DNA from: Amyelois transitella
Taxonomy: Eukaryota; Arthropoda; Insecta; Lepidoptera; Pyralidae
Direction: 5' to 3'
DNA length: 64,000 nt
NCBI RefSeq assembly: GCF_032362555.1
Contig: NC_083509.1
Coordinates: 7,587,001 to 7,651,000, forward strand
The notes under the pieces are model-generated. The model saw only the letters and a list, made by a program, of their open reading frames with translations, did not search any database and was not told the origin of the DNA. Shown here piece by piece: positions 13,045-48,125 of the stretch. The translations under genes and the position numbers were made by a program. Each line of letters opens with the position of its first letter. The first letter of the stretch is position 1.

Positions 13045-13312
13045 ACATACATACATACATACATATGGTCACGTCTATATCCCTTGCGGGGTAGACAGAG
13101 CCAACAGTCTTGAAAAGACTGAATGGCGACGTTCAGCTATTTGGTTTAACGATAGAATTGAGATTCAAATAGTGACAGGTTGCTAACCTATCGCCTAAAA
13201 AAGAATCCCAAGTTTGCAAGCCTATCCCTTAGTCGCCTTTTACGACATCCATGGGAAAGAGGTGGAGTTGTCCTATTCTTTTTTGTATTGGTGCCGGGAA
13301 CCACACAGCACC
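13045..13312 (-). mobile_element. SINE-A copy, full length with TSD
   Basis: Complete copy with a CATA microsatellite at the left (the element's 3' tail) and the GTGCCGGGAACCACA end at the right. A perfect 15-bp duplication, AAACAAAACAAATAT, lies at 13030-13044 and 13320-13334. It is one of the best preserved members in the window. Confidence 0.9.
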
Positions 13313-13407
13313 AAAAAAAAAACAAAACAAATATTATATAACAAATTTTAAAAATAATTTTGTTACTTCTTTAATATATATTAGTGTATATTAAAAGTTA
13401 ATACATA

Positions 13408-13655
13408 TATACGGGACAGATAACACAGATTGAGTTAGCCTCGAAGTAAGTTCGAGATTCGTGTTACGAGATACTTACCCAACGATATGTTATACGAGTA
13501 TAATACTTATATAGAAAAACATCCAAGGCCAATCAGAGAAATATACGTATACGTTTCTCATTATGGTCCCAGAATCTCATTATGGTGACCAGGATTCAAT
13601 CCCGGCAGTTCCGGTGTCACAGACAAGCGCACTATCGCTGCGGCAACAAGGCCGA
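13408..13655 (-). mobile_element. tRNA-derived SINE (SINE-B), copy 2
   Basis: Reverse-oriented copy. The tail and body (ACGGGACAGATAACACAGAT, then TAGCCTCGAAGTAAG) come first, and the tRNA-like head with its degraded B box and CGCTGCGGCAACAAGGCCG comes last. It is more diverged than the copies at 10909 and 46043. Confidence 0.75.
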
Positions 13656-14668
13656 TCTAACATATCTGTTAAAACAGTGATTATGATAAAACTTGGTACT
13701 TAGTTAAGAAAGTACTTGGAACATAAATCTATTCCGTGTCTGATTGACAGACAACATAAAGCCCACCCTAAATCTAGAAATTTGAAATTAAGCATGCAGG
13801 ATTACTGATGTGATCTAGGGGTGCACTCAGAGAGGATACATTACAGAATTACAATAAACATAAAACATTGTTAACATTTGCTTGAATAGATAGCATTACA
13901 TCTTAGTTAAATATTTTTTCGTGGATTTTTCGTTATTATTTTGAGTCATTTTCTCGCTTTTTATTATTTCGGCAATCTTTCCCAAGGTTAACGTAATAAC
14001 TTAAGATTATTGTCAAAGTTTCAGGAATTTTATTTGACTGTTTCCATGACTTTTCACATTTCGTGATAACTGTCAGTCTTTCATAAAAAAATGTGACTTA
14101 TGTATATACCAGTTGATATTCGTCGTTTATTCCTATTTTTATAGCTAACAAACATCTTACTCAAAATATTATAAAATAAAAATAAATAAAACATAGTTAC
14201 AAGTTAATACTATTGAAATTAAACCAACCACAAAACACGGACTCTATGTCGTATTCGTTGTGTTGATAGATGTCATGAACTTTATTTCATTATCGTCCAA
14301 ATACCGCAATATGATATTTTACTCTGGGGTGGTTGTTTGTACCACTTTAGCCTCCATATTTACGTTATTTTATATCTTTGGAAATACACTCTTGATTTGC
14401 CAGAATTTTAGACCTTAATGCACTGACTTAAGAAGTAATTTTGCTATTTGCAGTGTCGTCAAGCCATACCTTAATATTCGCTTGCTCAGCATTCGTAATA
14501 AAACACATGATTTGGTCGCACATGGATAAAACACAAATCTAAATAATGAATTAAATACCTATCTGTGGTAAAACTACATTAATTGTATTGTGAAGCATAA
14601 TCAAATATAATTGTGCAAATCAATTTAACACACAAATTAACAAAAAAAGTCGTCAGATACTAGGCACT
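13656..14668. other. intergenic, no gene seen
   Basis: No coding region, RNA gene or repeat that I can support. Confidence 0.35.
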
Positions 14669-14795
14669 TTAGAATAGGACCATATCTTCCCATGTCTGTT
14701 GTAAAAAGCGACTAAGGGAAACTCTTAAAAACTTGGGATTCTTCTTGTAGCAACCTGTAGTTGTTGGCTCTGTCTTCACAACAAGGTATACGGAG
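14669..14795 (+). mobile_element. SINE-A fragment
   Basis: Degraded copy recognised by AGAATAGGACCA, GCGACTAAGGGA, ACTTGGGATTCTTCTT and TTGGCTCTGTCT in order. Confidence 0.55.
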
Positions 14796-15852
14796 TATAT
14801 AATACCGTGAGTTTACATCGTCTTACTTCTCATCGAGGATAGCCTATTGTTCGCAGGCAATTTATGGACGATCGATACACCTTGTTATATTGGGATTATC
14901 GACAATTGTGACTCTTGTTTTTCGCCATAAAATAAATCAACGTGACTTTTATTGCGTCCACAAACATGTATTTTATTGCAGACTCCTGATATTAAGGCAA
15001 AGGTAATGATCATCTGTCATAACAACATCTAAATCGCTCAAAATGGTTTTATGGCTATCACAAACAATCACGCAAGGGCAATTAAAATTTACCCAAACAC
15101 GAGAGTGCCCAGTTAAATAAATCACAGTTGTTTTATATGGCTTCATATAAGTAAACGCGTGTGATGTAGTATTTGAGAAATAATAGTTTAGCACGCATTT
15201 CACGTATGATTTATACTTGCTGGCGAAAATTACAGGCGTTTAATTTAAGTAGCAACGGTTATGTTAAATCGCTTATGTTTCGCCCTCTATACATAAACAC
15301 CGGTGAAAAGCATTTCCACGATCATTTGTAAGCCATTTGCCCGTACTATTGAGTTTTATGATCCTTCGGGGCCAACGTATTATATTCTGTTACGTAAATA
15401 GGTTTACGATATTACAAAAAAAAAGTTTAAGGTATGTTATTTTTTTATCGTTTAAATAATAGAATGTCTATCATGACTATATACTAACAATACTTTTATC
15501 GATTAGTTAAATTCAAGTCATCAGCACGACTTCGTAAATACTTTTTATAAACAAAGTTTAATTAAGAAAGAAAAAGGGCAAAGAATCAGCGAAATGGTTT
15601 TTTCCCGGTATTTGCATGCGGCGCTTTTATTCGATTTTCAAATGAGCGCTTCATTTATTTTTGTTTGTTGCTTCAAGCATTTTGCATTAATGAACGTTTA
15701 TCATATTCAGGTCACGATATTTGACACAGTTACGGTGTTTTGGCTTTGTCCTCTTCACCCTTTTGGAAGTAATAGAAAAAATATTGGTTATTTTATTGAA
15801 TTTACACTAAATAAACTATAAAATATGAGATGACTATATAAAATGTGGACGA

Positions 15853-15950
15853 TGCGAAAGAATTAAACACGCAGGGGTCCTGACAAGTGGAAAAATGTAG
15901 TGTCTGACTGCCCCTCTGATAAAGTGGCGTGATTTTAGGTATGTAATTAA
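15853..15950 (+). mobile_element. LINE 3' end fragment (C-terminal codons plus tail)
   Basis: An open frame reads RRGPDKWKNVVSDCPSDKVA and stops at 15930-15932, followed by a TTTTAGGTATGTAA tail. The DKWK/GKWK motif, the spacing to the stop and the CGTGATTTTA after it recur at 47975 (minus strand) and in part at 60270. These are therefore 5'-truncated copies of one LINE, whose reverse-transcriptase domain is absent from the window. Confidence 0.65.
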
Positions 15951-16358
15951 TTATATTTTTTGATAAATTTCTTACGATAATTTAAATTTATTTATGTGTC
16001 GGCAAATGATAATTCACTCACACCTAAGTACGTGGAATTCCGACTTATAATATGACTAGTACAGCAGAGTTCTGAAACATTGCGCGTTTTAAATCCCAGC
16101 TATAAATTGTCTGCCTTATATCCGCAGTTTTAAACGGAATATATGACGTTTTAGGCTGTTAAGCTACAATACATAAGGCTTACGGTCCTAACAGAAAGCA
16201 GTCATACATCACGGTCTGAGCTAGATTAAAATAGCAATAACTATATGTTTTATAATTTGTACAATAATAATACATTCAAATACAATTTTTGAATTATGTG
16301 TCAGTCATTTCAGGGGATGGACAATAAACTAAATGTTATTAAACGTGTAATTACATAT

Positions 16359-16400
16359 ATTAGATAACATTTAAGATTGATAGGTAACATTTAAGATTGC
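16359..16400. repeat. short tandem duplication
   Basis: The 15-nt string TAACATTTAAGATTG occurs twice, directly repeated about 20 nt apart. Confidence 0.7.
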
Positions 16401-16410
16401 CGTGTATCCA

Positions 16411-16674
16411 CACCGCAATCACACCCGGAACCAATAAAAATAAGAATAGGACCACTCTATATCGTTCCCATGGTTGTCGTTAAAGGCGACTAAAGGATAG
16501 GCTTTTTAACTTGGGATTCTTCTTTAGGACGATGGGCTAGCAACTTGTCACTATTTGGATCTCAATTTTATTATTAGGTCAAACAGCTGAACGTGGCCTA
16601 TCAGTCTTATCAAGATTGTTAGATCTGTCTACCCCGCAAGGGATATAGACGTGATTATATGGATGTATGTATGT
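16411..16674 (+). mobile_element. SINE-A copy, full length
   Basis: It reads from a degraded CACACCCGGAACCAATA end through AATAGGACCACTC and TTGGGATTCTTC to TCTGTCTACCCCGCAAGGGA and a GGATGTATGTATG tail. The complete family order is kept. Confidence 0.85.
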
Positions 16675-16734
16675 AAGATTGTAGAGAAATTTTTACAATT
16701 TTTCATTATTAATTTCCGATACTCTTACTCTTAC

Positions 16735-17091
16735 TCCCGGTTGCAGCCTCACCACTATAGAGAAGAGCCCGGGGTATGTCTTTGACCATAGATCCTGGAT
16801 TGGGTGAGTCAGGTTTTACACGGAGTGATCTCATTTGACCTCCGCAACCTTTGCAGAGCAACTTAACCCGTATTGAATCGATAATGGTTACACATCCAGT
16901 TGCCTAAATGGGCAGGTTTCCTCATGATGTTTTCCCTCACCGTAAGGGCATCGGCTAGTTTTGAAATTGATGTAAGTACAAAACTTTCAAAAGTCATTGG
17001 TACATAGCCGAGGTATGATTCGAACCTGAGCTATTATGCGCATCATGCATTTTAACCGGGCACCTTGCCGATTAGACCATCGACGCTCTAC
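16735..17091 (-). mobile_element. tRNA-derived SINE of a second type (SINE-C)
   Basis: On the minus strand it starts with GATGGTCTAATCGGCAAGGT and GGTTCGAATCAT, matching tRNA A-box and B-box positions. A body containing CCTTACGGTGAGGGAAAACA and GAGGAAACCTGCCC follows, then ACCCCGGGCTCTTCT and a GTAAGA repeat tail. Partial copies of the same body occur near 7510-7570 and 23757-23870. Confidence 0.75.
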
Positions 17092-19350
17092 GATACACTT
17101 CCATTAAGAAATTTCCTTGAATTAAGTAAAAAAATGGTAGGAAGCAGCCAAATTCAAAAGTAATCTGACAAAGGAATTAACGAAATACACCGATATTCTT
17201 TCTACCCGTCCCCGCCCTAATAGTGAAATATTTGACACATTTTTGCGTCCGATTTTATGCAATCACACACGATAGCACAATATTCAGAATCGTGTTTCGT
17301 GACACAGGCCCATTAATCTTCATCCTCTTTGGCCGCTGGCTAATAGATAGGTGACCATCTATTTCTTAGCAGAAATAACACTTTATTTGCACCCAACCCA
17401 GCCCAGATCACAATAGTTGCTCCATTTTTTTGGATTGACAATGAGCTTGTTTATCATCACTTAACGGATATAAGTTTTCCATCAAATAAAGACTATATCT
17501 AACTTGTTAGTTAACGCGTAATACAACCAATGAACCGAAAGATGTAATAGATACTTTAGTAATTTATTTAGCAATGGTCTGGCAGATGATCATAACTAGT
17601 ACTTATGACAAGGCGCGCAAATGTAGCTCAATTTTATGTGTCGCCAAAAAATTGGGAATTAGCCAGGGGCGTCCAGAGGAATCCCAAGAGCCTCTCGCCT
17701 ATAAAGTGGCGGATGGCTTACAACTTGCAATATAAATTTCACTCTGCCGCCGAGGTTGAGGTTTATTGCGGTCTGCTGAACTACGAGCAGGACCAAGTAG
17801 GACCTACTTGTTACGTAATGGACCCAATTCCGCGCTTGGGGAATTCAATTTATTCAAAGCTAAATTTTAATGAACAACACTGGTCGAATTAAATTGAAGT
17901 TATTAATTTTTTTTTTATTTAAAATATGATTTACTTTAATTTACAGATTTCACAGTCAGTTGGGCCTAGACAAGCCGTTTCTCTGTCAATAAATATTTGT
18001 CGTCCGCATTACATTGTACTTCCACCTCCATGATTGCACAGTATTTTGCATTATCATTAAGGAAGTACATATATGTATATGCAGTTAAGAAAAAGTTTGA
18101 TATTTATTTGAGCGCTTAATTGCACTACTACATTCCATACAAACCATACTAATATTATAGGAGAAAAGATTTGTATTTTTGTTTGTAATAAATAAACTCA
18201 AACTAGACCGATTTTTGGCCCAGATGTATGTAGAAAGACCTGTAGGAGTAGCTACTTTTTTACTGGAAATTCGCAAAGAAGCAAAAGCGAAGCAAAAAAA
18301 AAACGAAGAAAGCGAATAAAGTTGACGGCGTACAATGCAAAGTACCAAGATTGATATTTCACACAACTACAATTTATTGGCTTAGCTACTGCCTTCCTGC
18401 ATTCACGATATGATTTGATGAAGTAAAAATAATATTTTTACATTTAGATACGCGTCTCTGACTCATAACCTCTATTTACATGCTACTGTACCTATATTTT
18501 GCTTCAATATTATTTTTGGTCGATAAACATTCCCTTATCGGAAAGTATTTTCCGCAGCTATGGGAAAACTTACTTGGTTCTATCTGATAGTGTTTAACTT
18601 ATTCATGGAAACGTAATATTTTGAGGACAGGGGACAAAAAATAACACGGGCACAATTTTGGATTCCAAACATTGGCGTGGAAAAATGTAATTTTATGTTT
18701 CTGTCGATTCAGTATATACCTATAGTATTTGAAATGGTATCTACCAGTGTATGGTTAAATCATAAATTGACCGTGTAATGTTTCGTTTAAAATTAAAATT
18801 CAAACCATGTTCATACCATTTGCATATTATTCACAAAGAGCGATGTTATAATTGGGCTTTTTTATGGAAATTTTTCCCCGTTGTTTCATGTGGACACAAC
18901 ATGATAAAACAACGATCTGACCATTTGTAGGCTATAGGTACTTTTTACGGCCATAAATCTTGAAACATTTATAACATTAAAACATCTATTATTTTACTTT
19001 GCCAAGCCTTAGAAATAAATTGCATTTGCAATAAGTCAGCGTTTAGGACTGGTATCATTTTGAATGTTTTTTTTTGTGTAAAAGAGACAGCATCATCCTT
19101 GGTGTTTTTTTCCATTATGCTCCTAGTCCGTTCGTTTTGTTAACCAGAAAAGCAGTTCGAAGTCCACAATACAGGGTAAATTATTATGCGGAGCGACTTC
19201 GGTCTGTCCTCCATTATAATATTTACAGGTAATAAAAAAGCTTGGATCATGGTTCTAGCATATGTGCTTGTATAAGAATAATACCTTAGTTGGTACTGGA
19301 AATCAAATTAGGTAGAAAGAATTTAAAGCCATCACCTGCATTTTTCACAA
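17092..19350. other. intergenic, no supported gene
   Basis: One open frame at 17605-17892 (95 codons) has no recognisable domain or convincing splice context and is not called. The rest is AT-rich. Confidence 0.35.
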
Positions 19351-19400
19351 CAGCTTTTCCAAGACTGTTGGCTCTGTCTACCCTGCACGGGATATAGACG
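19351..19400 (+). mobile_element. SINE-A 3' tail fragment
   Basis: Only the region from CTTTTCCAAGACTGTTGGCT to GGGATATAGACG is left. Confidence 0.6.
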
Positions 19401-19871
19401 AAAAAAGGAATGCAATCTTAAAAGAGTACTTTATGGTAACAGCAAAAGTGATTCCACTCTAATAGCATTTTTATCTTGGACCACGAATCAAGAGGTATGG
19501 TGGCTGATATTGTGAAATGGCAGTCGTAAAGCTAAGTTACATGCTATCGGGCGACTTGACAAATGAATCCGCTAATACATAGGAGAGTAATAAATGCGAA
19601 AGATTCCAGCGTAGTTCTTTTCGACGTAGAATAAATAACTTGCCATTTGCACGGGGAAGAAGGAGCGAGGGTACCTACTTAACAATTTAGTGCTGCAGTC
19701 ATGTTGCACTTGCAGTTACATATTTCAGCCCGTCTACTCTTTCTATGGAGAGAAATTGAAAAGTTCAGTTTCAGGAATGTGGTTTTAAATACATTCAGTC
19801 AGAAAAGTATCGGGAATGGATTATTCATTTATGGTTCCAAATTCAAATTTTTGTTTTTTTTGTTGTTGTTA

Positions 19872-21109
19872 GATTGGCACAACTGTTTTCCATTTTGGCG
19901 CGGAGTTTGAGTTGCATCTGTTGTTTACATTAAATACAGTGCTATTTTTAGTTATATCATATCTAGTGTGTATTGCTAATTTCATAATGGATAAAAACAT
20001 CGAACAAAGAGTTTGTCTTAAATTTTGCATTGCCAATGGAATATCGTGTTCGGAGTCACTGAAAATGTTACAGAAGGCTTACGGTGAATCGACTTTATCA
20101 AAAACTCGTGCTTATGAGTGGTACAAAGCGTTCAAAAGCAGTCGATCTGTGATGGAAGATTTGCCTCGCTCTGGTAGGCCATCAACGTCTGCAATTGAAG
20201 TTAACATCGCAAAAGTGAAGGAAATAGTGACTGAAAATCCTCATTCAACTTTGAGAGAGATAGCCACCGAACTTTCTGTATCTCACGAGTCGATCCGTAC
20301 CATTTAAACTAATAATTTGGGTATGAAACATGTTGCCGCTCGGCTAGTCCCAAAAGACCTGAATTTTTTTCAAAAACTCAATCGCATCAGAGTCGCTGAG
20401 GACATGCTAGAACGAGTCAATTCCGACCCAACATTCATGAAACGCATTGTTACTGGTGACGAGACGTGGGTTTACGAGTTTGACATGCAAACTAGTCAAC
20501 AAGCTTCGGAGTGGCGCCTTCCAACTGAACCGAAACCGAAAAAACCACGCCAAAGTCGTTCAAAAGTCAAAGTCATGTTGACTGTTTTCTTTGACTATCG
20601 CGGTGTTGTGCACTCGGAATTCTTGCCAGAAGGTCAAACGGTAAATAAGGAATATTATTTGAGTGTTATGCGGCGTTTAAGAGAGCAAATCCGACGAAAA
20701 AGGCCAGATTTGTGGAAAGAAAATTCTTGGATTTTGCACCATGATAATGCACCTTCGCACAAGGCCATCATTGTGAACGAATTTTTAACCAAACACTCAA
20801 CAAATACCATCGAGCAACCACCATATTCACCAGATATGGCTCCAGCTGACTTTTTTCTTTTTCCTAAACTCAAATTACCACTTCGTGGCACCCGTTTTCA
20901 ATCGGTAGAAGACATAAAAGAGAATTCGCGGCGAGAACTGACCTCAATTCCGGAAACAGCGTTTAAAAAATGTTTTGATGATTGGATTATTCGTTGGCGT
21001 AAGTGTATCGTTTCTAAAGGAGCATATTTTGAAGGTGATAAAATAAATTTGGATGAATAACAAACAGTTTGTGTATTATTGATCTTTTCCTGCTACTTTC
21101 TTGACAGAG
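19872..21109 (+). mobile_element. mariner element
   Basis: About 1.24 kb, the usual mariner length, with TA at both borders (19870-19871 and 21110-21111). The ends GATTGGCACAACTG and (reverse strand) CTCTGTCAAGAAAGT agree only in part, so at least one inverted repeat has diverged. The interior is almost entirely the transposase gene. The borders rest on the TA flanks and expected length and are less certain than the gene itself. Confidence 0.75.
19987..21060 (+). pseudogene. mariner transposase, one in-frame stop
   Basis: 357 codons plus stop in a single frame, beginning MDKNIEQRVCLKF at 19987. The N-terminal part carries two helix-turn-helix regions (SLSKMLQ-like segment around residues 20-35, and LREIATELSVSHESIRTI). 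The catalytic acids are D in VTGDETW, D in LHHDNAPSH and D in MAPADFFLFP. The last two have exactly 34 residues between them, the DD34D signature of mariner. The only lesion is TAA at 20305-20307, where mariner relatives normally have a leucine after RTI; one T-to-A change of TTA explains it. The frame is otherwise open to the stop at 21058-21060. It would give only a DNA-binding fragment of about 106 residues. Confidence 0.9.
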
Positions 21110-21227
21110 TAGTATACCTACCGTTTGGTTTCCGGCTGACTTTTTGAGCATGTCATATAAGGATGATATTTAAAACAAAAATGCAAGAACTCATAAATTC
21201 ATATACCGAATACAATTTTCGAAACGA

Positions 21228-21475
21228 TACATACATTCATATAATCATGTCTATATCCCTTGCGGGGTAAACAGAGCCAACAGTCTTTAAAAGAATTTAA
21301 CACCATGTTTTGCTTAATTATAGAATTGAGATTTAAATAGTGACAGGTTGCTAGCCCATCGCCTTAAAGAAGAATCCCAAGTTTATAAACCTAACCCTTA
21401 GTTGTCTTTTACGTCATCCATGGGAACGAGATGGAGTAGTCTTATGCTTTTTCTATTGGTGCCGGGAATCACATG
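21228..21475 (-). mobile_element. SINE-A copy
   Basis: Near-complete copy from ACATACATTCATATAATCAT to GGTGCCGGGAATCACATG, 117 bp beyond the mariner element. A short central deletion removes part of the CAGTCTT region. Confidence 0.8.
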
Positions 21476-21878
21476 ATATGGGATGAGAAAAAAAACTTGC
21501 AAATGCATCCTAATCGAAATAGTATGGCAATGCAGTTACAAAAGCGCACTACTATTAATATTTCGTAAGTAAAAAGTTATCTTTTAGTAAAGATGAATAT
21601 TTCTGAAAAATAGCCTGAAACCTAAACTCGATTCATTACCCCTTGATTTGAGATTTCTCAATGTCCAAGTGGGATTTGATCGAGACGTCTTATCGAATGA
21701 CCATCGTGTTTTATTCGATATTTTCTCATCAATACTAGATTGAATGACGTTGGGAAACTTGTGAATTGTGAGAAAATGCTTGTTCTGCAACTCTTTTTAT
21801 AGATATGCAATAAAATGAATAACCGATATATCATGGTGTATTTATTAATAATATAAATGAAACTTTAAAATATATACA

Positions 21879-22138
21879 TGCCGTGTGGTTCCCCGCATCA
21901 ATACAAAAAAGAATAGGACCACTCCATCTCTTTCCCATGGATTTTGTAAAAGGCGACTAAGGGATAGGCTTACAAACTTGGAATTCTTTTTTTAGGCGAT
22001 GGGCTAGCAACCTGTCACTATTTGGATCTCAATTCTATCATTAAGCCAAATAGCTGAAAGTGGCCGATCAGTCTTTTCAAGACTGTTGGCTCTGTCTACC
22101 CCACAAGGGATATAGACGTGACCATATGTATGTATGTA
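21879..22138 (+). mobile_element. SINE-A copy, full length
   Basis: From TGCCGTGTGGTTCCCCGCAT to the CATATGTATGTATGTA tail. It is immediately followed by an inverted partial copy. Confidence 0.85.
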
Positions 22139-22140
22139 AC

Positions 22141-22275
22141 ATGTAATCACGTCAATATTCCTTCGGGATAGACAGAGCCTGCAGTCTTGAAAAGCTTGAA
22201 AGGCCATTTTCAGCTGTATGGCTTAATGATGGTGTTCTTTTCTCTTAGTCGCCTTTTACGACATCTATAGGGCAT
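22141..22275 (-). mobile_element. SINE-A copy, truncated, inverted next to the previous one
   Basis: It begins ATGTAATCACGTCAATATTC and keeps GGGATAGACAGAGCC and TAGTCGCCTTTTACGACATC, but lacks part of the middle and the hairpin end. The two copies face each other tail to tail. Confidence 0.75.
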
Positions 22276-23540: not shown

Positions 23541-23756
23541 ACGACATCGGTATGCACAATGAACACGCAAAAATAACATATACATAGGTCTAAATAGGTC
23601 AACTGTAATTATTTTAAACAGCAAATGATATGGATAAGGTTATAAACTTAGCCTCTAGGTAACTATTTATAATAAGTTATCGAATTTTGTTTCATCTTTG
23701 AACGTACTACCGAAATGGTGAAGTTTAGCAATATATTACAGTTGAAATGAGATTCC

Positions 23757-23870: not shown

Positions 23871-23966
23871 ATCTTGAGAGACGACATAGTAAATGATTTC
23901 ATGATGATGATGATAAAATAAAAATGACGTTTGTATTAAAATTTTAGTACATAAATTAAAAGCCCA

Positions 23967-25004: not shown

Positions 25005-25007
25005 CAA

Positions 25008-27150: not shown

Positions 27151-27259
27151 ACTTCGTGTAAACTCATTTTAAAAAAGTAGCTGAGACAATACATATATTA
27201 TATAATCCTAACTTTTTGTTTTATCCATATTTCTTTAACATCATAAAAAGTAAGTCTAC

Positions 27260-27522
27260 ATACATACATACATATAATCACGTCTATATCCCTTGCGGGG
27301 TAGACAGAGCTAACAGTCTTGTAAAGACTGATAGGCCACGTTCAGCTATTTGCCTTTAAGATAGAATTGAGATTCAAATAGTGACAGGTTGCTAGCCCAT
27401 CACCTAAAAGAGGAATCCCAAGTTTATAAGCCTATCACTTAGTCGCCTTTTACGACATCCGTGGGAAAGAGATGGAGTGGTACTATTCTTTTTTGTAATG
27501 GTGCCAGGAAACACACGGCACT
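27260..27522 (-). mobile_element. SINE-A copy, full length with 16-bp TSD
   Basis: Complete copy of 263 bp with CATA repeats at the left and GTGCCAGGAAACACACGGCA at the right. The 16-bp sequence TAAAAAGTAAGTCTAC occurs at 27244-27259 and again at 27523-27538, a perfect target-site duplication that defines both ends of the element. It is the best reference copy here. Confidence 0.92.
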
Positions 27523-27746
27523 TAAAAAGTAAGTCTACTTGCGGTAAATTTTGCAGACACAATAATAATACCTCATTTTCATACATCTTATCACATTTTA
27601 AATTTATAATAATGAAAACTGTCAATCAAATTGAAATGTGAAATGTCTGAATATTTACAAATATATCAAATCATTTCTAAAAAATCTACAAATAACGGTA
27701 CCTTACTAAACTCATAATAAAATTAAAAGAAAACCTAACATTCGAA

Positions 27747-30700
27747 ATGGACGGAGATAAATTAGAGAAAAGGCGCTTGCCTAAAATTATGGCCTGCATG
27801 ACTAAACAAAGTCTGGAGAACTTGCGGAATAAGGCTTTGTTTAGTTTAGACGTCCTTGATGCAAAAGGGATTCGAAGGTTTGTGTTCTTGATAATATTAA
27901 TGTATGATGTATGATTTGATATTTGATTTTACTGCAAGGCAAGAATATACCTAATATATTCTGTGCAGGTATATTTTGTATCCAGCAAATGAACCAGCAG
28001 GCTTGAATAAAATCACTAAGTTTGCGAATAAAATCCATTGCTTAAAAAAATAGAACATAAAAAAGATAATATATTAATATATATCTATTATATTTATATA
28101 TTGTACGTTTATACTTCCACGAAAAAACACATATGTAATTTGTGCCAGATGCATCCTTCCCACGCTGACTTTTAACTTAGAATCCATTAAGGGTTAGACT
28201 ATTAGGCATAGTATTATAAACTTAGAAATCTCTCTTTGGAGATATCTCTTATAAGTGCTTTAGAGTTGGTTTAGGTAACCAACCGCAGAAACTTCTACCT
28301 GTATAAATTTCTCTCCAGAGATATTTTACGACTTAATATGCGACGTCGAAGGTGAATAATAAACTAGTTGCGATTGCTACCAGACGTCGTAAGATATTCT
28401 CTGACGTCATCATCATGTTGAATTATGGGTCTCTAGTGATTGTAAAGTTATTTAATGCAAATTACGAGGCCATTATTTTTAATCTTATTCAACTTTATTA
28501 AGATTTTTTCATAGGCAACTTTTTATATTGTCATAGTTAGTAAGTTTCCTTATAGTTATCATATTTAACTTACACTAATCTACCTAAAACCCACTCAGTA
28601 AAATCTATCCATTACCAATACACCATTTAAATCATTAAGATAATAAATTTGATATCCTTCCTGTAGGCGATGGGCAATCTGTAACTATTTGAATCGTGAT
28701 CCCTTTATTGAGTGATACAGCTGAACGTGGTCATTCGGTCTTTTCGAGAATAGGTATTGAGTCTCTCTACCCCACAAGGGATAAAGACACAATTATATGT
28801 TTGTAACTATGTGATTTTCTAGCTGGGATAAACCAATGTCATCATTTAACTTTCATATTCATCTCTCGTCTGTTATTCGAACAAGGTTTTAGTTGTAATT
28901 CATTAACTTGCATTAATTACAAAAGTTCTTTAGTAAGCAGTTCAGGCATCGAGTGTATTATATAAGGATTTTTTTTGATATAAAATATGTACAAAGAAAT
29001 CGCTATATTCACGCATTTATATTTTTATGAAAAACTACCTGTATTTTTTTTAAAATAAGTATATAAATTAAAATGCATTCCCTTGATCGAGTTTTACAAT
29101 CTGCACGGGAAGAGAAGCCGCCGGTACACACTATATTTTCCTCGCTACCAGACTAGCGTGGAAGCTGTTACATTGTCGGAGTAAATAAGATTTGTACGTA
29201 CTTTTATATTTTCCAAAATAAGAATATTGTTTATACGGATTTTTTTCTTTAGACGAAAACAACCTTTGCATGAATGTCTGATTCTGGAGCTCAAAGAAAC
29301 TGGCTATTCAGAATCATCCGACTATCTTCAAGACTTGCTTTACGATAATGTGCAGTTACTGGCAGAAGACGATATCGGCATTGTCGTTGATTTGCGAAAG
29401 AGAGAAGATTATTTGGAGCATATTGCCCAAGGTCTCATGAAGGCAGAAAAAAATAGAGATAGAGGTATAAGCAAATCCTACTAGTTAATGTTATAAGTGG
29501 AAAAGTTGAAGGATTTGTTTGTTTATCTTTCACGCAATTGGATGGATTTTGGCGAAATTTGGTACACGGGTAGAATGTATCCTGGTTTTACATAATAAGT
29601 ACTTTTTGAGAAAATACAAGCGATAGTTTATCAATATTTATCAAATTGTATGTTTATATTAAAAACATGCAACGAACCACGCCCAAAATGAGCAATTGGC
29701 GAATATTTGTCGTAATAAATTTGTGATCACAAAGAACCGCCCATACTTTGTTAAGCTTGGGATTCTTCTTTAGCAATGAGCTAACAATTTGTCCCTTTCT
29801 GTATATCAATTCCGTTAATTAGCTGTTCAGTTCAATGTTGCCGTTGAGGCTTTTCGAGACTATTGTTTCCTCATATATCGTAGAAACGTGATTATAGAAG
29901 AGATTTTATTTTGCAGGTGAAACTAAACAGGAAGCCTTGCAGCTACTAAGCCTGGCCATGCATTACGCCGAGCAGGGGAAGGGCATTCTCTGGCTCGCTG
30001 AGAAGTTTTTCTTGGCGTCCATAGCAGTCGCTAGCCAATTCCTATTGGACGGCGGTCGGCAGAAGGGGTGTTGTAAATACCATTACGCTAAATTCCTGCT
30101 TGACAAATGTAAGAGTTTTTGGGTTCTTGTTTTTGTTTCCAAGTTATTTTTCGGGATCTAAACGGCTTTTAACCAGGTTTAGCTTCTCTAATTGGTATTT
30201 TTTGTAATACCTCTGGTAGGTTACTCATTGGGGGTTTTCAGGTTCCTCTTTACTGGACAACCAGTGGGGACTTCAGTAGTTTTCTACAAAATACCATCTC
30301 AACAAATATTATAAATGTGAAAGTTAGTTACTGTGTTTGTTATTCCTTTACGGGCTATCTACTGAATTATTCTTTTTGAAATAGGTATCATTTTACAAAA
30401 ATTAAGAGTCTAGAGAAGGACAAACGGTATCTTCCATCTCGGTAAAAAGTATAGTTCCGTTCCGATGGCATTTAATTCGTTGCTTTCTGTAGGTGGTGCT
30501 AATTCCACCGCTTTTTTATATACATACATATAATCACAGAGCCAATAGTCTGGAAAAGTCTTATTGGCCACGTTCAGCTGTTTGGCTTGATGATAGAATT
30601 GAGATTCAAATAGTGACAGGTTGCTAGCCCATCACCTTAAAGTAAATCAAAAGTTTATAAGCCTATCCTTTAGTCGCCTTTTACGACATCCATGGAAAAA

Positions 30701-33700
30701 AGATGGAGTCATCCTATTCTTTTTTTTGTTGCCGGGAACCGGCATTATAACACGGCACTTGGTACACGGCTTTTTTTGTAGATAGAGTTAAATTCGACGC
30801 TTATTGTAGATGGCGTTAAATAAAGATAGTAAAGGCGCGGGCGAAGCTGCGGGTAAAAGCTAGTAATTTATAAACAGATTAAATCTATATACATAGAGGA
30901 GTAAATTTGTGTAGTTTTTTTGAGTTATAGTATCCTACACCTATAACAAGTCTCGAACTTACTTTGGGTTGCTCAATCGATGTAATTTATTTCGTAAGTT
31001 GTTACACATTTCATTTGTAAGTCACATACAAAGTATCACCACAAGATAATAAATAATTATACCTAGAGCAGTAATTTCCTTAAGGGAATCAAAGCCTCGA
31101 CCTTATGGTAATTTCCCAACCTTATCAGGAACTGTGCGGTGTGGTGTTAATAATTTTCTAGAGTAACAATGTGAAGAAAATAAAAAAATTACAAAATGTA
31201 CTTATAATGCTAATCCTTATTGTTTACCAACGGGATATAATTTTTTCTGAAATTCGGCGCGTTTGATGTCAATTTGTCTGATGGAAAGATCTAAAGTTTT
31301 ACACGCAGGATAAATGAATACTTACATAATCCGGAAATAACAGAAATCCGGAAATTTGATATTATAATACGAACTTTTAATTGCAATAAGTAACTGAATT
31401 GAATAAAACTATTTAAAAATGTAATACTAACAATTCTTTACCTATAGTTCCTGGCACGGACCCGGAAGAATCCTTTGTGATATTGACTGAAGTCAGGGAT
31501 AGCGCCATAGGAAAGGTAAGCAATGTTTTCATCTGTTCTGTCGCGGGTCTGTTAAAAGATAAACACATAAACTACCGACGCATCTTTCAACCTAATAATT
31601 GTCACACCCAGTCTTATTTTAAAAGGAAAAAATATACTTATGGACAAAAGGTCACACTATCTTTAAATTTGAGCTTCATCATAACTTCGTAACTAAGTAT
31701 ACAAAGGGATTATTACATCTGACCGAAGTGTATCGCGTCGTGAATAACTTATACATTTCATATTAGTGGAATATCAACTCTCACGAACTGGAATCCCTAT
31801 TTGATCCCTCGTAATCCTTACTGCCGAAGTATAATTGAATATTTTTATGTCGTCTTACATCAATTAAGAAATGATATACTTATATAAAACTGAATGTCTA
31901 GTCATTCATCTGAAACTAGTAGGTATTGTCATATGTATTCTTTTGCATTAATTTATTTGTAACATTCATTCTCTCAGTTTTCATTATATAAATAATTTGT
32001 CCAAAACAAACCTATGTTTAAAATGCTAGTTTTATTTTTGGGGCCAGCAATAATGTTGTAATTTGTTCCGCATACATTTATTAACCTTTCTAGGACTGGT
32101 TTCTTTATGAACCAAACGAGAAAGGCGTGGTGATACCCCGGGACACCCTGTTCGCGGCTACAGCTCTTCAGCTGCACAGGGTTTTGCTGGACAAAGCGAG
32201 AGCTGTCAGGAAGAAAGACCCGGGGAAAGCTGAAAGATTGTCCAGGTTGGCCGAGAGAAGAGCAAAAGATGGTAAAGATTTTTATTATTACGGCTATTGA
32301 TATAAATACTTAAGCTTCATGTTGGGTTCTAGGGTATTGGTTACATACGTTACAATTGTAAAGTTGGTTTATTATTTATTGAGAAATAAGCTATGGATAT
32401 AATTACTCCGATTACTTCTTCCTTATAAGATGAACAATAATTCACTATTTTCGGGCAATAATAGTCGTGAAAAAAATTATTACTACAAGATGGTAAATAT
32501 CCGTCAAATTGTTTAAAAAAATTATCTCTTTTTCTATGTAATGAAATTGTAAATGTCAGTCAAGCGAGGGCTACATTTTATTTTCCTTGTGCATCCAACT
32601 AGTTTCAGTATATCTTTTACTTATTCATAAGTCCACAATAAGCTTAATGTAATCTCCGTGTTCATCAACATTAGCTTCTCTCTACCTTATTAAGAATAAA
32701 GGTGGAACGACATAAATGTATTTATTACTATTTGTGTTTTCGGTTCTGTAAATAATAAAATAAAGAAAGTCGCCTAAATAAAATACATATATGAAAATTG
32801 TGCTGATTTTAACATTAAGATTCATATCATTGTTGTAATAGGTGTATCCTATAGGAGTCTAATCATGGGAGGAGTGCGTTAATCTTTGCATTTGATCTCT
32901 AACAGCAAACCCTTTTTTGGTTGCCTACTAGGCGTCGTTCAAGTATGCCATTAGTCCCATACTGCTGCCTAGAATATGAGATTCTAGGGAGAGCTGACGA
33001 TACACGATACGCACACGTAACCATGGCATCGCCGAATAGTCGCCCTATCCTGAAGACCACCTGATTTTTCTTGTATTGAAAAAAAAAAAAACCTAAATTT
33101 TTGTTGAAAAAAAAATATAATATGTTATTAATATTTTAGCTGGCGAAACAAAGAAGACAGCTGAAGCAATATTAGAAATCGGCATTTGTCAGTTGGCTAT
33201 GAACAACTTGAATAACGCCCAAAAGACGTTTGAGAGAGCATTCAAAATATATACTGACAGCAATAACATAGAGGGTCTGTGTGACACAAGAATGCATTTA
33301 GCTGCTGTAATGCAAAGGTAACATAGTGTTAAAGTAGTTTTCGTTACCACACAAACAATAATACAAAATTCTTAAGATACTTCTGAACTTTCTATATGAT
33401 AACAAACTCCTGCTTATTTCCGTTTCTGCGAGAATTTCGGTAAATTCAGTCCACATAATAAACGTACATGCCTTAATTCATATCGAGATCCAGCGGTTAG
33501 ATCTGCGCAGTGATATAAATATGTCAGTGAATCAATCAGTCAGTGTCCTTATTCCTCTATGTTTGAATTCTAAAAATATATATTTTTTAATTTGTTTTAT
33601 GATAAGATACTTTCTCCATACACGACCTTTTCGTTTTTTATTATCCTAGATGCTTTCGTTTATCTCCGGAAGTATGAACGTCGATCTTTTGGATTTTTTG

Positions 33701-38716: not shown

Positions 38717-39451
38717 TTCATTTCTTTCTGATGTCTTTATATCTAAATCGAACTATTGAAAACATATATTATTTTGAAATAAATAAAACCAGGTAATTTT
38801 TTGAGTTTATTATTTAATTTTAACCTTATAAAAATAAGAACTTTAACTACTTATTTACACATTAAATACCAAAGTAACCTTTTGAGCAACACTTACACCG
38901 ACTGACCCGCTAATTTTCCCCACCAATATGAGCTCAAGATTATCTAGATATAATTTAGTCAGTACTGGTATCTATTTCAGGATGAGATACCTACTTCTCT
39001 ACATAAAAGAAAATATTGTATTTGAGAATAACTTTTTATATCATCTCTAAGTAATTAAAAGCTAGCGCACTGATGTAGATCATTATTTTATAGTACACTA
39101 TATATATTTAAAAAATAATACGAATTATTGAAACTGGGAGGATTTCATATTTTCGAATACAAGAATAATAAAATAATATTAATTATTTCTTCTTTTATTC
39201 ATTGGTCGTGAAAATGTAATGCCACCACGATATTAAATTTTTTTGGAAATCGCTAGAATTAGATACTCTTTGCGATCTTTGATAATCTTTCCGAATTCAA
39301 TTTATTTGAAAATAAAGTCGATGATTTTTGTGAACGAAAGAGTTGTGTCGTACAGCTTAAATCATCCATGCGTTAATAACAATTTTAAAATCATAGATTT
39401 ACAATATGCATAAATGAAATAGTTCTTAATCATTGCGCTATCTTATCTAAC

Positions 39452-42400
39452 CTACTGAGCTTTAGCCGTCCTTTTACGCGGTGTCAATCTTACTTTGAAT
39501 CCTTCGGCACGCTTTAGGATAATATCGGCTTGTAATTGGAAATCGGATTCCTTAAGGTCGGAGTGAACTCGGAAATTCCTCAAGATGGTGGATAAGATAA
39601 TCTTCAGCTTCAGCATAGCATATTTACGACCTGAGAACGAAACAAATTGTCAGTACAAATGTCTTTTGAATTTATGGGTGCATTTTAAGATTTTTTTTGG
39701 TTTTGGAACATATAAAGAACCTGAATCAACTGCTTTGTTTTCTTAAATAATTCGATATGCATGCTAGTCAATAAACTGTGTAAAAGTTTAACAAGATATG
39801 ACCGGTGTGACAAATAGAACAAAATCTTTGCAAAATTTGTGACTCTTTATATTTTCACCTATTTTCTTGCACACTACGAAACAACACACTCGTCACGCAA
39901 TATTACTATGATTCTAACGTCCTTGATAAGAATGAAATTTCTTCCAATAACTGGAAATATTCTGAAATTATAAGAATGTTAGCAAGGCACTCACCTACGC
40001 AACTCCTGGGCCCAGCAGAGAAGGGGACAAATGCGTAGTAATGGCGGTTAGCAGAACGCTCTGGCAGGAAGTTGTCGGGGTCAAACTTGTCAGGATTGGG
40101 GTAGATGTCTGGCCGACGGTGGAGTTTTATCGTCGCAATGATAACGGTAGTACCAGCTGGCACTTTCTTACCACTGGATGCTGTAAGAAAGGACTTTATT
40201 GTAATTTTAGATGGATTTTGTTTTGTACCTAAAACTTGATTGAATTTAGCGGCACATGAGTAATATCTAATTTGGAAGTTTTTTCCTTTTATTTAGTGCC
40301 TCATAAAAAGTTAATGAAGGCCAGTGCCTGTCCTTCCCTTAATTTTATGACCAGGTCAATATACGGATTTGTAGGGTTAGTCATGAACGAAATCATAACG
40401 CTAATTTAATGTATGTACTTACGTAGAACGACATCTTGTTTGAGATGTCTAGCAATAATTGGCACTGGAGGGTACATTCTAAGCGTCTCCATCAAACACC
40501 TTTCAAGGTATTTCATCTCCAAAGTATCTTGGAACGTGGCTGGACGATCAGAGTCACCAAAAATCTGGTCCAATTCTTCTATTACTTTGTCCTGGATATC
40601 TTGGTGGATTCCCATCATTGAGAGGAAGAAACTACTGCCAGCTGCTGTTGTGTCATGACCCTAAAATAAAATATATATATAAATTTAAAGTTATCATCCT
40701 TCTTGTTTTAGTCAATATTGCTTTTAAGTTCTACGAAAGGAGCCCGGAGTCAAGTGAGTATCTTGACTCAATTATTACGTTAACGTAATAATTGAGTTTA
40801 GAGCTGAACTGTTTGGAGAATATAATTAACGACAATTTAAATATAATTACTTACTTCAAACATAATAGTGTCCACTTGTTCTTTGATTTCTTCGTCAGAA
40901 ATAACAACACCGCTCTGAGAACTTTCAAGAAGAAGATCGAGGAAGGCTAAACGTTTCTTTTCTCCAACATCGTTGTCTTCAACATCTAAATCGTCTTTCA
41001 GGCCAGAAGATTGTCCAAAAGATAAGCCTTCTACGGACGTTGTTTTGGTTGTTGATTCACTGTTCTGAGGTACATCTTTGGTTTCACTTAGGACGGAAGG
41101 TTTTTTGCCAGATTTGAATTCTTCCTTCTTCCTCTTGATTACCTGAAATTAAAACATCGATGAAAACATTTTTTTACGAAATTTAATCAAATATATCAAG
41201 ATACTTATAACATCATTAGCTATATTTCTGAGTGAAATTAGTACCTAATATACACTTCATTTAAATTCTATAAAATAGACTGCTACGAGGCGAATGGTCC
41301 TTACCTTTTTAGTCAATCCATGGATGATGTCAAGGAGTTGTGTCTGATTCTTAGCGTATTTAGTGAAATTGAATATCAGTTCAGGTCTCAGCCATATCTT
41401 GGTATGTCTTAAATGTAGAATATCGCACATCTTCATGACAGCCATCGCATATTCGAATCCACTTTGGTCTTGAGTCGACTTGCTGACGCCCATTGCGGTC
41501 TCTGTAATGTTTAATTGTTACATTAAAGGGTCCCCGGCGTAAAGAAAGACCTATTGACCTCCAATATTCAAAGCACTTGTGTAACCAGAATGATAATAGA
41601 CCCTGAAGCCACGGATGGCGAACATTGGCCATTAGGAGTACGTGAAGCCGTGGGGGGTCGTTAAACACGATCTCACTCTTACTACGTAGTATCCAATGAA
41701 TCAGAACTTGATACCTAAGTTATTTCAATGCTACCAGCTAATCTGTTCCAGGTAAATTATATAATTATACCATAGATATCACGGATATAATACGGATTGC
41801 AATTAAGCGCCTTATTTATTTTAACTTCCTCTGCATAATTCGAATAACAGCCGCTATTATATGCAATATACCTAGGTTAATAGTTGCATTACTTCTAAAA
41901 TATAAAATGCTGATTGCACTGGTAAGCGTGTCATTATACCTACTTGTGATTATGACGTTATTAGTGTCAGTAAAGTAACAAATAAGCTTATTTGCCTTAC
42001 ATACTTAGTCTACAAGAAAACATAATTCCTGCTGACGTAGATGTAGTTAATCTGAATTGAATACCTATAATAATGTATAAGTTGGTCGAAAGTTAATTTT
42101 GAGTGGAATAATATTTAACCAATCCGGTATGAAAAATTAACATTCTTATTTTTTTTATTTAATGTCTCCACTTTAATTAAAACATAAAAGCAAATGTAAG
42201 GAGAAAAAAAATAAAGTATGAATGTTTCAACAGTTATAGGCATGTGAAAAATATTCGTAAGTTATCTTAAAAATATATTTACTAAGAAGTCTTTCAATTC
42301 AAGTCCACAATCCAATGATCTTGAGGCCACTACAACCAGCTACAAGTTGACTACGTGACAGTACTAACAAATTGCTCATTTTTGCCATTAATTTTGCATT

Positions 42401-45400
42401 AGCTCCTTGAAATTGGGCCGACAACGCTGAAATGACTTTTGAACCGTTTAAAGACCTGTTTTAGTAAAAAATATTTAAATATTATGTATATAACCTTGTT
42501 AGCCTAAATTATTGTTATAACTGTAGAAAACATCGACTTTGTCAGCATGTACACTAGAATTTTGAGAAAGAATGTATCTCTGTGCCAAAATTCATCTAAA
42601 TCGTTTTAGCTATTATATTCAAAATTGAACGATAATAATTATTTATTTTTTCGCAAATTATTATTAACTTTATTTGTCTACTCGTATATATGACGATGAA
42701 AAATAACGAGTATGTGTGCATAGTTGCAGTTAGTTTCCAACGACTACTCTGAATGCATAAACTTGCCTATTAATTTATGTCCATGGCCGTATAGCCGCTA
42801 CTTCCGAGAGTTTAGTCTTAACAATATAATGAAAACTTTACAATTATTCTTTGTGAAATATAACTACAGAATTGATCACGAACGAACATTAAAGTTAGAT
42901 TTTGAAAAGGAGATTTTTTATCAATTCAATTATTGCTATTTTTTAGTAGATAAAATCTTTTAATACATAAGTAGCATATTTATAAATGAATTATCCGTTT
43001 TGTAGTCTTTAGGGCTAAACTTTTTCATATTCTAGACGTGATGACTGTTTTTATTCTTCAGTCATGAATGAAGAGCTAAACAGAATTTTATTGCATTGTT
43101 TCCATAAACCGATATAATCAATCGACAAATACAATAGACATTTGCGATCTCAAAGACGAATGAAGTTTGAATTAAACATTTTGAAATTGTAGTAACCTTA
43201 TTACCTACATATAGGTATGTAACTACATAATTTCAACAAAACCCAACAAAATCCTGCTTGTTTCTTAGCTTTCTATTTTTTAATCACGCAATGGATTTTA
43301 ATAAGTATAGAGAATTCATTATTTTCGAAGGTTTCGGTATACATACATACATGTCAACTATTCTTCAAAAGACATCGTGCGAAGCCGGATCGGGTCGCTA
43401 GTAAGTTTCAAAGTAGACAATTTACGTCCTTGTCTGCTAGATCAAACCCGTAAACAAATTTTGTAATTTTATAGATACACGTATGAAATTACTACAGATA
43501 ACGGGTAATGATGCCAATAAGTGCAATATTTCTGGTGTAGGCAATTCAAACGATTAAGACCACATAATTAAGGTTGATCCAGATTGATATTGTTAATTTT
43601 ATTTATAAATTCTAATAACCTCTGTACAAGTTTTAGAAAACATTGCGTTAATTCAATAAATACAAAGCCTCTATAATATATTTAATGTCTCTCTATAAAG
43701 AGCTTTTGAAACTTTATACGTGGCAAACTAAATTATTAATTACGAACCCTTTATATTAGCAAAACAAAGGGATATGATCACGTATGAACGCTGAACATTG
43801 TACAGTTTAGTTAGCTTCATATTTAAATAACCAGGGTCACTAACAAGGTTAAGGTTTATTCAGATAAAACAATAAAGATATTTTCTTACAATCTTTATTT
43901 TTTACGGTTTCGTCATATTTTTTGTAAGTTTATTCGGGGTTTTGGTAAAAGTTTTCCAAATGTCATGACTTGGATTTCGTGTGACTTAGATTTCGTGTAA
44001 ATATTTGGCAGTTTGAACGGTCGGCTGCCACCCAACCCGCCTTGGAATTTTTGTCATGTCAATGTGAATTGACCCTTATTTGCTAGGTTATTTCTTTTTT
44101 CTACTTTGACCGATGTTTGATATTTTTTGGAATTCATACTCAATATCTCACATTTAGAACCTACCTTTCACTGAATTAATCAGTTAACACTATGTTCATG
44201 AGTTTCTGTGCAAATCAAAGATTTTCCGCTCTACGTCCTCGCCTACATTGGTTATAAAAGGTAAACAACTAATGACTCTTTAGGATAATAACACACATTA
44301 CACCAATCACAGTATAAATTCATTTTACATTTACCAGTCTAATCAATATTTCTGTGACTTTAAGTCTTTGAAGAATAACTCAACATGTTGGTTTATTTAT
44401 ATTATAGCTTAAGATTGACACTGATCTTTAATTTTATCACGTATGGTCTGGCTAATTTTAATATTTTGATTATTAATAATTTATTTCGAAATAATCGAGA
44501 GGATCCTAATAAAATCAAAAATATTGTTTTAAACTATACGGCATAAAACCCTACACACGGTTAGCTAAAAATTTCCGATTTCGCCTTTTTTGATGAGGAA
44601 ATAATCAAACACTGTTTCTTATTTTATACTTGTAATATTAAGGCATGGCTGGATTACTTACCCAATAATATCTCGACGGTACATTCGCTCATGTAATCAT
44701 GGCAGTCGAACACACCGGCTTCCTTCTTCATCTTGTCCACAACAGCCCTCGAGTTAGCGTTGAACAGATCAATGAAACTCTTCAGGACGTTCAAATGGAA
44801 AGTAGGAGCGATCAGTTTGCGATGAGAACGCCATTTTTGACCTGTTTAGAAATGGTAAGGCTGATTAATATTTATTGATTAAAGTTAAGGAAATATTTTC
44901 CGAGACGCTTCAGTTTTTGTGGACTAGTAACAAAAATAGGATTTGCAGCAGCTGTTTTTATTGCGCAAAAATATGAAGAAAAAAATACCTGTACTGATGA
45001 GGAGGCCGTTTCCAAGCCAAGGTTTAAAGAACCGGTACTCATCGGCCTTGTCTATGTGGACATGGCTGCTTAGAATCAGCTCCACGTCCCGAGGGTCGTA
45101 CAGGAACACCAGGAGACGAGGGCCAATCCAGACTTTCACAACCGCCTCTTTGTCGTACGGCTCACTCCTTTGAATCAACTTCCTGAAGATATCTGTTGAA
45201 AGAACGGAATGATAATTACAAAAGTAGAGATCAATTGCTCATTCAGAAGTTTTATTAAGTTTAGTAATTACTTAATGTTAACAATGATAATCATGCTATT
45301 TACTGTGTACAGCTACTGAAGAATGGACTTATTTTAATACAAACGATTCAGAGTCAAAATACCATCGTTGTATCGTAATAATTATTCCATTTATCACACC

Positions 45401-45735
45401 TACAAATGTTCCAATGGACAAGGAGGAGCACGTGCTACGATCATTATAAAATAATTCTCATTCTCCGTTCGCCACTCTATTCTCACAAATACATTAGTAT
45501 GAAACAGTGAAACTCACCAGCAGAACCGCCAGTAAACTCTAACGCGTTTCCTAACAGCGGCAATCCGGGGGGTCCGTCAAGTTTCTCTGCCAGCTCATAC
45601 AAGTGACGCCGCGACATCCTCCAATAAGCATACCATAGCACCAAAGCCGGCACCAGGAGCATATAAAACAAACTGGTTGCGGCCCATGTCGTAGACTGCA
45701 CTACGTTCTCCGTTGCGTAAGACATCTTAGAATAT
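39452..45735 (-). CDS. CYP4G: cytochrome P450 CYP4G family, 8 coding exons
   Basis: Predicted 559-residue P450 of the insect CYP4G subfamily. CYP4G enzymes carry out oxidative decarbonylation of long-chain aldehydes to cuticular hydrocarbons in oenocytes, at the endoplasmic reticulum. Exons in transcript order: 45735-45518 (ATG at 45725), 45192-44989, 44841-44662, 41501-41305, 41142-40855, 40660-40423, 40180-39995, 39630-39452. All are GT-AG and in phase. Motifs: membrane anchor around residues 17-35, PPGLPLLGN, the I-helix EGHDTTAAG at about 359-367, E417-T-L-R420, FLPERS, and the heme-binding F492-SAGPRSCVG with cysteine 499. Between about residues 264 and 340 lies an extra hydrophilic acidic stretch (with [16 protein letters not shown]) that is the hallmark insertion of CYP4G. 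Intron 3 is 3.2 kb. An AATAAA on the minus strand sits at 39301-39306. Tail-to-tail with TTC29. Which CYP4G member it is cannot be told here. Confidence 0.95.
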
Positions 45736-46042
45736 CTGCGGACAAAATGATCCTTCTTACTCCAACAACTAAGTGAACGATATAATAAACTTCGCGTTAT
45801 GTGATTACACGTACGCAATCACCTTAATAATCACTGTGAATGAAGAAATGCTTACATCTAGATTCTAGTATTTCTAAACGGTTGCGAAACGTGTTAATAA
45901 CCTTTGTAGCGGGTCAATTTTATTTGTGTTCGCAATTTTATGATATTCGTAAAAATTATTTTATGTACGAATTAATATGATATGCACGGAGTTTCTTCTT
46001 AAATATCACTTCATAATATAAAACATAATAAAACCATATTTG

Positions 46043-46270
46043 ACGGCCTCTGTGGCGCAGCGGTAGTACGCTTGTCTGTGACACCGGAGGTCCCGGGTTC
46101 GAATCCCGGTCAGGGCATGATGAGAAAAGAACTTATTCTGATTGGGTCTTGGATGTTTATCTATATAACTATTCATTATAAAATATAGTATCGTTGAGTT
46201 AGTATCTCGTAACACAAGTTTCGAACTTACTTCGAGGCTAACTCAATCATTGTAATTTGTCCCGTATATA
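46043..46270 (+). mobile_element. tRNA-derived SINE (SINE-B), best copy
   Basis: TGTGGCGCAGCGGTAGTACG (A box) and GGTCCCGGGTTCGAATCCCG (B box) are near-perfect tRNA promoter boxes. The body matches the copy at 10909 closely and ends in GTAATTTGTCCCGTATATAT. It lies about 300 bp upstream of the CYP4G first coding exon, inside the likely first intron. Confidence 0.9.
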
Positions 46271-47694
46271 TTTATTTATATATTTTATTTATTTATTTTA
46301 ATTGAACTGGAAACAAATAGATGAAAATTGTATTAAAACCAGTAGGGTAATTTATAGAATAAATTATCAACTTTATAATTTATTGCAATTAAACAAAAAA
46401 AATACTAACCATACCTTCTTTATAGGAAAACAAATAAAAATATGCATCCATATCCATAATGAAATTAAAAAAATTATACTATAATAATATACTATAATGT
46501 AGCTTTAGGAGTAAAACTACTTATAGCAGAAAACTTTTTAACATTTTTAATAAATAAATAAGACATCATGCTCGTTCCACAAAGGACAAACACTTGATTC
46601 CTCCTTCTACCTCAATGATAAAGGAAGTAATAATAAACATTTGCTTTTAATTCATTAATAACAGTCACGTCTACACGAAACATTTCTGTCAAATCTGCGG
46701 TGTGTGAGTCACACGGATTATAAATCCACGTACATATTTACATATGAAGTCGCCCTTAGAAGAATAAATGTATGACTAGAATCACAAACGGATAAGCCGG
46801 AAAAATCTATCCAATTAGTATAGAACCTTTGACTGTTTCCTTTATTATCTTGCAAATATGTTCGCCAACCAAGTTAAATGTGTCCTACATAGATATATAC
46901 AAGTAAGTACAAGTACTTACGTCAAGTAATTAAGCCAATATTGTAGTTTTATAACTTCTAACATGCCAAATGCAAACTAGTTTATATCAACAAGACATAG
47001 TCCACCTTTTTCTTATATATTTTACAATTATAATTGCAAAGGTCAATTTGACCTATGTAAATTCTTTATTATTATTTTATTTATCGTTAAGTTGTGGGCG
47101 GACGAACTGGGAGTATTATTTTATTTTTATTATATTGTTTAATAATTCTCATCTTTTTACTTGTTTTTTTATTTGTTTATCCAAGGTTCCTATAATCCAC
47201 CATTATATGGTAATGCAATACACATACCCACCTTATATCTAACCGCCTCAGTCTTAGATATCTATCGGGTTCTTCCAGGGCGCACACGGAACCAACGCCG
47301 GGTGTATGATGAAGAATATCATAAAAGGTCCCCTAAGAATTCGAACATAACAAAGATACATGTTTTGAAATCTACTTGTTGTTAGACTAACAACCTAAAA
47401 ACCAGGTCAAACCGCCCGCCTGCCTGCGCTTAAAATGATCGCGTGTTTCCTCGAGTAAAATAATACGAATACTTTGCGAATTCTCGCCAACGTAATGGAT
47501 AGCTTAGTTTTGTTTTAGCAAGTAGGTACCTACTTACTCAAAAGTTTTTACTTTTTTTTTTAATCAATGCAACTCCCCTGCTCGGACCCATTACGACTTG
47601 TTTGGTTTTATTGTATGTTTTGTTTATTTATAAAAAAAACTCCCTAAAGAGAGCGCCCGCGTAAAACAAAAATCCCGATATTTTCCGTTCCCTT
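46271..47694. other. no supported gene
   Basis: AT-rich DNA, probably within the long first intron of CYP4G if the promoter near 49.3 kb is right. A stretch at 47240-47340 is less AT-rich but has no recognisable domain. Confidence 0.35.
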
Positions 47695-47830
47695 GAGAAT
47701 TCCTGAAAATCCTCTAGTCTAGTCTAGTGGTTAGAATCTATCTGCATGTCAAATTTCAGCTCGATCGGTTCAGTAGTTTGGGCTGGGCGATGATAGATCA
47801 TTTTTTGAATATATAAAGAGATTTGACGGT
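47695..47830. repeat. LINE-like dispersed repeat fragment
   Basis: TGCATGTCAAATTTCAGCTC and GATCGGTTCAGTAGTTTGGG are typical of the 3' region of a common insect LINE. A related piece is at 62023-62230. Confidence 0.55.
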
Positions 47831-47961
47831 GTTTCGATACTATAGAAAGTTTTGTTTTGTTTATTTTTAACTTTTATTGATTGTGATTCACTTTTGTTAT
47901 GCAATTTAACAATAAATTAAAATTTTACGTTTTTACTAGTCCCGTTTCTAATTTTCTTACA

Positions 47962-48125
47962 TACATACATAAAATCACGCCTCTTTCCCGGAGGGGTAGA
48001 CAGAGACTACCTCTTTCCACTTGCCACGATCTCTGCATACTTCCTTCGCTTCATCCACATTCATAACTCTCTTCATGCAAGCTCGGCGGTTTCGGGTACT
48101 TTTGACCTAACTAATTTTCTTATTG
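47962..48125 (-). mobile_element. LINE 3' end fragment with CATA tail
   Basis: On the minus strand the frame reads DRGKWKEVVSVYPSGKEA and stops at 47977-47975, followed by TTTTATGTATGTATG. Upstream, CGAAACCGCCGAGCTTGCAT and AGTTATGAATGTGGATGAAG are further LINE coding text. This is the best preserved of three 3' fragments of this LINE in the window, and its tail is shared with SINE-A. Confidence 0.75.

Follow-up and report, generated by a model that had tools for sequence, protein, structure and literature searches.

The stretch of Amyelois transitella DNA analysed here (64,000 nt, referred to as the window) carries an abundant SINE and a few remnants of a LINE, which raises the question of whether both elements end in the same 3' sequence and whether the LINE family is the one that provides the SINE with a reverse transcriptase. 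A reading made from the sequence alone had proposed both, naming the LINE copy near 48 kb as the likely partner. Its first proposal, the common tail, was confirmed by alignment; its second survives in a narrower form, because that copy is itself a dead fragment of 151 bp, so that only the LINE family can be the partner; no reverse transcriptase motif was found in the window. A SINE/LINE partnership at the family level is likely, and the explanation favoured here, with good but not full confidence, is that the SINE shares its tail with a family of RTE-like LINEs from which it obtains the reverse transcriptase.

The SINE family and its putative head

The SINE repeat, which measures 263-275 bp when full length, was located by blastn at 20 places in the 64,000-nt window, a figure reached by discounting one of 25 blastn pieces (the LINE tail) and merging the remaining 24 by hand. 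Over the aligned stretches, copies match a majority consensus, built from 15 window copies, at 75-95% identity. Those with an intact 5' end begin at or near GTGCCGTGTGGTTCCCGGCACC, and the tails read ...CTCTGTCTACCCCGCAAGGGATATAGACGTGATTA followed by TATG repeats, a tail that is present at 14 of the 20 places (those reaching at least position 251 of the 263 in the consensus). Exact border repeats of at least 8 nt (16, 15, 12, 8 and 8 nt) were found in 5 of the 15 copies: 27260-27522 (minus strand, 263 bp, 16-nt target-site duplication, 94% identical to the consensus), 13045-13319 (minus strand, 275 bp, 15 nt, 94%), whose 3' border at position 13045 is placed by its duplication, 3642-3869 (minus strand, with an internal gap, 12 nt, 80%), 16400-16673 (plus strand, 274 bp, 8 nt, 91%) and 30512-30740 (8 nt). 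In one further copy the 12-nt border repeat consists of adjacent TATG tracts and was not counted as a target-site duplication, and the other nine have border repeats of 4-7 nt, i.e., at chance level. The window also has weaker remnants at about 8086-8330 and 34.8 kb. A copy with its tail at 21879-22138 (plus strand) adjoins an inverted partial SINE at 22139-22271; the two are arranged tail to tail, in opposite orientation, across 21879-22271, and one of them may have inserted into the repeat tail of the other.

The abundant element could also be something other than a Pol III SINE, namely a non-autonomous element lacking an RNA-gene head, to which a LINE 3' end is merely attached. In favour of this view are the Rfam search of one copy (27240-27545), in which no model, those for tRNA and 5S among them, matched up to E 10, and the best A/B box pair of the consensus, which has four mismatches and was equalled or bettered in 100 of 300 shuffles; decayed SINE heads, however, can escape both kinds of search. 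On the other hand, the element resembles tRNA-derived SINEs of Lepidoptera, SfSE1 for example, in its length (263-275 bp), copy number and tail, as judged from their descriptions and not from an alignment, and only the terminal block of its consensus is similar to the LINE piece of the window. We regard this alternative as improbable.

LINE copies and neighbouring features

The LINE copy at 47960-48110 (minus strand, about 151 bp) is a separate insertion and a dead, 5'-truncated fragment, which comprises the last 43 codons with their stop and has TATG repeats at its end. Its translation reads VKSTRNRRACMKRVMNVDEAKEVCRDRGKWKEVVSVYPSGKEA, followed by TGA at 47975-47977, and it is bordered by an exact 12-nt target-site duplication, TAAGAAAATTAG, found at 48111-48122 on its 5' side and at 47948-47959 on its 3' side (minus strand). 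Target-site duplications and 5' truncation are marks of target-primed reverse transcription in non-LTR elements, and since the duplications occur on both elements (12 nt in this LINE copy, 8-16 nt in 5 of 15 SINE copies) and the LINE copy is truncated, the insertions are attributable to that process.

Two other LINE pieces are present, both on the plus strand: a decayed second 3' end at 15842-15950 (77% over 109 columns, E 6e-19) and a more diverged fragment at 60275-60328 (76% over 54 nt, E 3e-7), the region of which (60260-60328) gave a tblastn match of 43% over 23 aa (E 0.004). This third fragment has a strong hairpin of its own (-15.8, as low in 5 of 1000 mononucleotide shuffles). No full-length LINE was seen in the 64,000-nt window, and the [YFA][AGMVIL]DD reverse transcriptase motif is in none of the 396 segments between stops that are 45 aa or longer, a scan that would miss shorter or altered pieces of the enzyme. 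The 43-aa peptide matched no Pfam family, and in PDB it matched only unrelated proteins at E 0.05 or worse, i.e., by chance. The LINE copy has a trait of the RTE clade, a very short 3' UTR with simple repeats right after the stop, and its peptide presumably resembles RTE C-termini; the label RTE-like used here for the family is a provisional one, drawn from published precedent and from this presumed resemblance.

The LINE tail at 47960-48110 might instead come from a SINE fragment that inserted into, or became fused with, the remains of an older LINE, a possibility already raised by the sequence-only reading, and the last 33 nt of the LINE copy do match the SINE. A single 12-nt duplication nevertheless encloses all 151 bp, the open reading frame continues into the shared block and stops there, the coding 5' part has no SINE similarity, the SINE body is absent, and the second LINE end contains the upstream part together with the end of the block (77%). 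With these borders and this composition, the SINE-inside-LINE arrangement was rejected and we regard it as very improbable.

The window also holds sequences of other kinds. A mariner-like transposase occupies 19873-21060 (plus strand) as two adjoining stretches of one frame split by a stop, the first with an HTH_48 domain (Mos1 type) and the second with Transposase_1 (E 4.8e-19), and a long ORF at 2263-3198 (minus strand), which matches DDE_3 weakly (E 6e-5, short of the Pfam cut-off), is probably an old transposase of another kind. Rfam (33.1 bits) and ARAGORN agree on a tRNA-His gene with a GTG anticodon at 46046-46117 (plus strand), some 1.9 kb away from the LINE copy. Pfam further detected a 7tm_6 odorant receptor piece at 4427-5170 and a cytochrome P450 piece at 39906-40292 (minus strand), which together with the repeats would point to Lepidoptera as the order.

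The shared 3' block and its possible role

On the minus strand, the LINE copy reads CTCTGTCTACCCC at 47993-48005 and then CGTGATTTTATGTATG at 47964-47979, and SINE copies end in strings that are identical or nearly so (e.g., at 13088-13100 and 27297-27309). For the alignment of the tails, the TATG microsatellite was cut off both elements, and the best local alignment then joins the last 34 nt of the SINE consensus (positions 212-245 of 245) to LINE positions 47973-48005 (minus strand), with 28 of 34 columns identical and a score of 36, while dinucleotide shuffles had a mean of 15.6 and a maximum of 29 (none of 5000 reached 36). The score was also attained by 6 of 5000 stretches drawn at random from the window; we infer that these come from the old SINE remnant near 8086-8330, since a later tiling of the window found it to be the sole unmasked stretch scoring that high. 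Both elements carry the block at their 3' end and in one orientation, and it includes the TGA stop of the LINE (47975-47977), as the earlier reading had stated. Upstream of the block, the LINE scores 13 against the SINE, a value reached in 4680 of 5000 shuffles; the shared module is thus restricted to the 3' terminus.

Once the repeat is removed, the LINE end at 15842-15950 scores 14 against the SINE tail, a level reached by 4240 of 5000 shuffles, and for the piece at 60255-60330 the score is a weak 18 (547 of 5000), so that the match rests mainly on one LINE copy. That these two ends do not rise convincingly above shuffles would suit the view that the similarity is due to chance or to the TATG microsatellite alone, but for the pair formed by the SINE consensus and 47973-48005, in which the repeats were cut before alignment and none of the 5000 shuffles reached the score, a microsatellite-only similarity is rejected and this view is hardly credible. 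Beyond the window, exact-pattern scans found no match in viral contigs and none in prokaryote genomes, and a two-row profile gave 14 pattern matches in viral contigs, none of which was confirmed.

The SINE block with one repeat is predicted to fold into a hairpin whose loop is GCAA (-10.7 kcal/mol, z -1.76, a level reached by 10 of 200 shuffles). When its repeats are left off, the LINE block has two equally good best folds (-6.6), one of which follows the SINE plan; with a repeat, a different fold wins (z -0.34). Among 12 tails (9 SINE, 3 LINE), 84.6% of cells pair in the hairpin, but each of 500 shuffles did at least that well, and changes on both sides were found in no pair; versions slid along the sequence pair less (25.0-53.9%), although the structure was derived from the SINE itself. 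A 3' hairpin common to both elements is possible but gains no support from covariation. Just upstream of the block, the SINE consensus has a perfect hairpin of the CAGTCTT/AAGACTG type (e.g., 27310-27330, minus strand), whose region folds as 71 nt with z -3.94 (0 of 200 shuffles as good); the LINE sequence upstream of its tail has no similarity to this region.

The shared block coincides with the possible hairpin in both elements and also holds the LINE stop codon. It could be speculated that the signal recognized by the reverse transcriptase is an RNA hairpin within the last codons of the LINE ORF, that these ~34 nt would serve both coding and template selection, and that the SINE captured exactly this module, a proposal that we consider rather unlikely as it stands. 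In the more general mechanism favoured here, an abundant lepidopteran SINE and an RTE-like LINE family share a ~34-nt 3' block followed by TATG repeats, the LINE reverse transcriptase would recognize this block in RNA and start target-primed reverse transcription at the repeats, and the same enzyme would copy the SINE RNA in trans. Slippage during priming at the repeats could then leave the microsatellite at the end of each copy, and the LINE copy at 47960-48110 would be a dead, 5'-truncated product of that machinery and not its source.

Comparison with published tail-sharing systems

The window contributes one more likely SINE/LINE partnership in Lepidoptera, a finding that is real but ordinary and that makes no long-standing question newly testable. 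It fits the published account in which many lepidopteran microsatellites come in families with shared flanks. Tail or body strings used as literature query terms retrieved no paper.

Tay et al. (2010) described the 3' ends of lepidopteran RTE elements as microsatellite families (PMC2887409), which resemble the LINE copies of the window in having a coding C-terminus and a stop followed directly by simple repeats, and in occurring as 5'-truncated copies with target-site duplications; that description differs in dealing with the LINE ends themselves and not with SINE tails. For Metulj, a SINE of about 267 bp from Heliconiini, an RTE LINE partner was suspected from 3' similarity (PMC6685494, PMC4016481), although in heliconiines the accumulation of Metulj did not show the expected correlation with that of RTE (PMC6685494). 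Metulj differs from the present element in that its hits are reported only in heliconiine genomes and its tails vary (PMC6685494, PMC4016481).

Tail sharing between a SINE and an RTE element, similar in length and identity to that described here, is already published for Helicoverpa and Plutella, and the phenomenon has possibly been published for the same SINE family as that of the window. In Helicoverpa armigera, Wang et al. (2012; PMC3272025) found 82% identity between the terminal 43 bp of HaSE1 and the HaRTE1.1 3' end, the repeats there being TGA. HaSE1 and HaSE3 are like the window SINE in that their ends match the 3' end of an RTE LINE with a short 3' UTR of simple repeats, whereas the repeats are TGA instead of TATG and HaSE1, as described in that paper, is 386 bp long and has a tRNA-like head (PMC3272025). 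For Plutella, Han et al. (2021; PMC8010984) reported 84% identity between PxLINE1.1 and PxSE5 over 43 bp at their 3' ends, which carry ATGT repeats. The same source describes SfSE1 from Spodoptera as a 298-bp element with ATGT repeats and 89.6% identity to PxSE5 over a 56-bp 3' fragment, and reports, from other Lepidoptera, LINEs whose 3' ends resemble those of PxSE5 and SfSE1 (PMC8010984). PxSE5 and SfSE1 with PxLINE1, compared by description, resemble the pair in the window in the length and identity of the shared end and in the ATGT repeats carried by both partners (PMC8010984).
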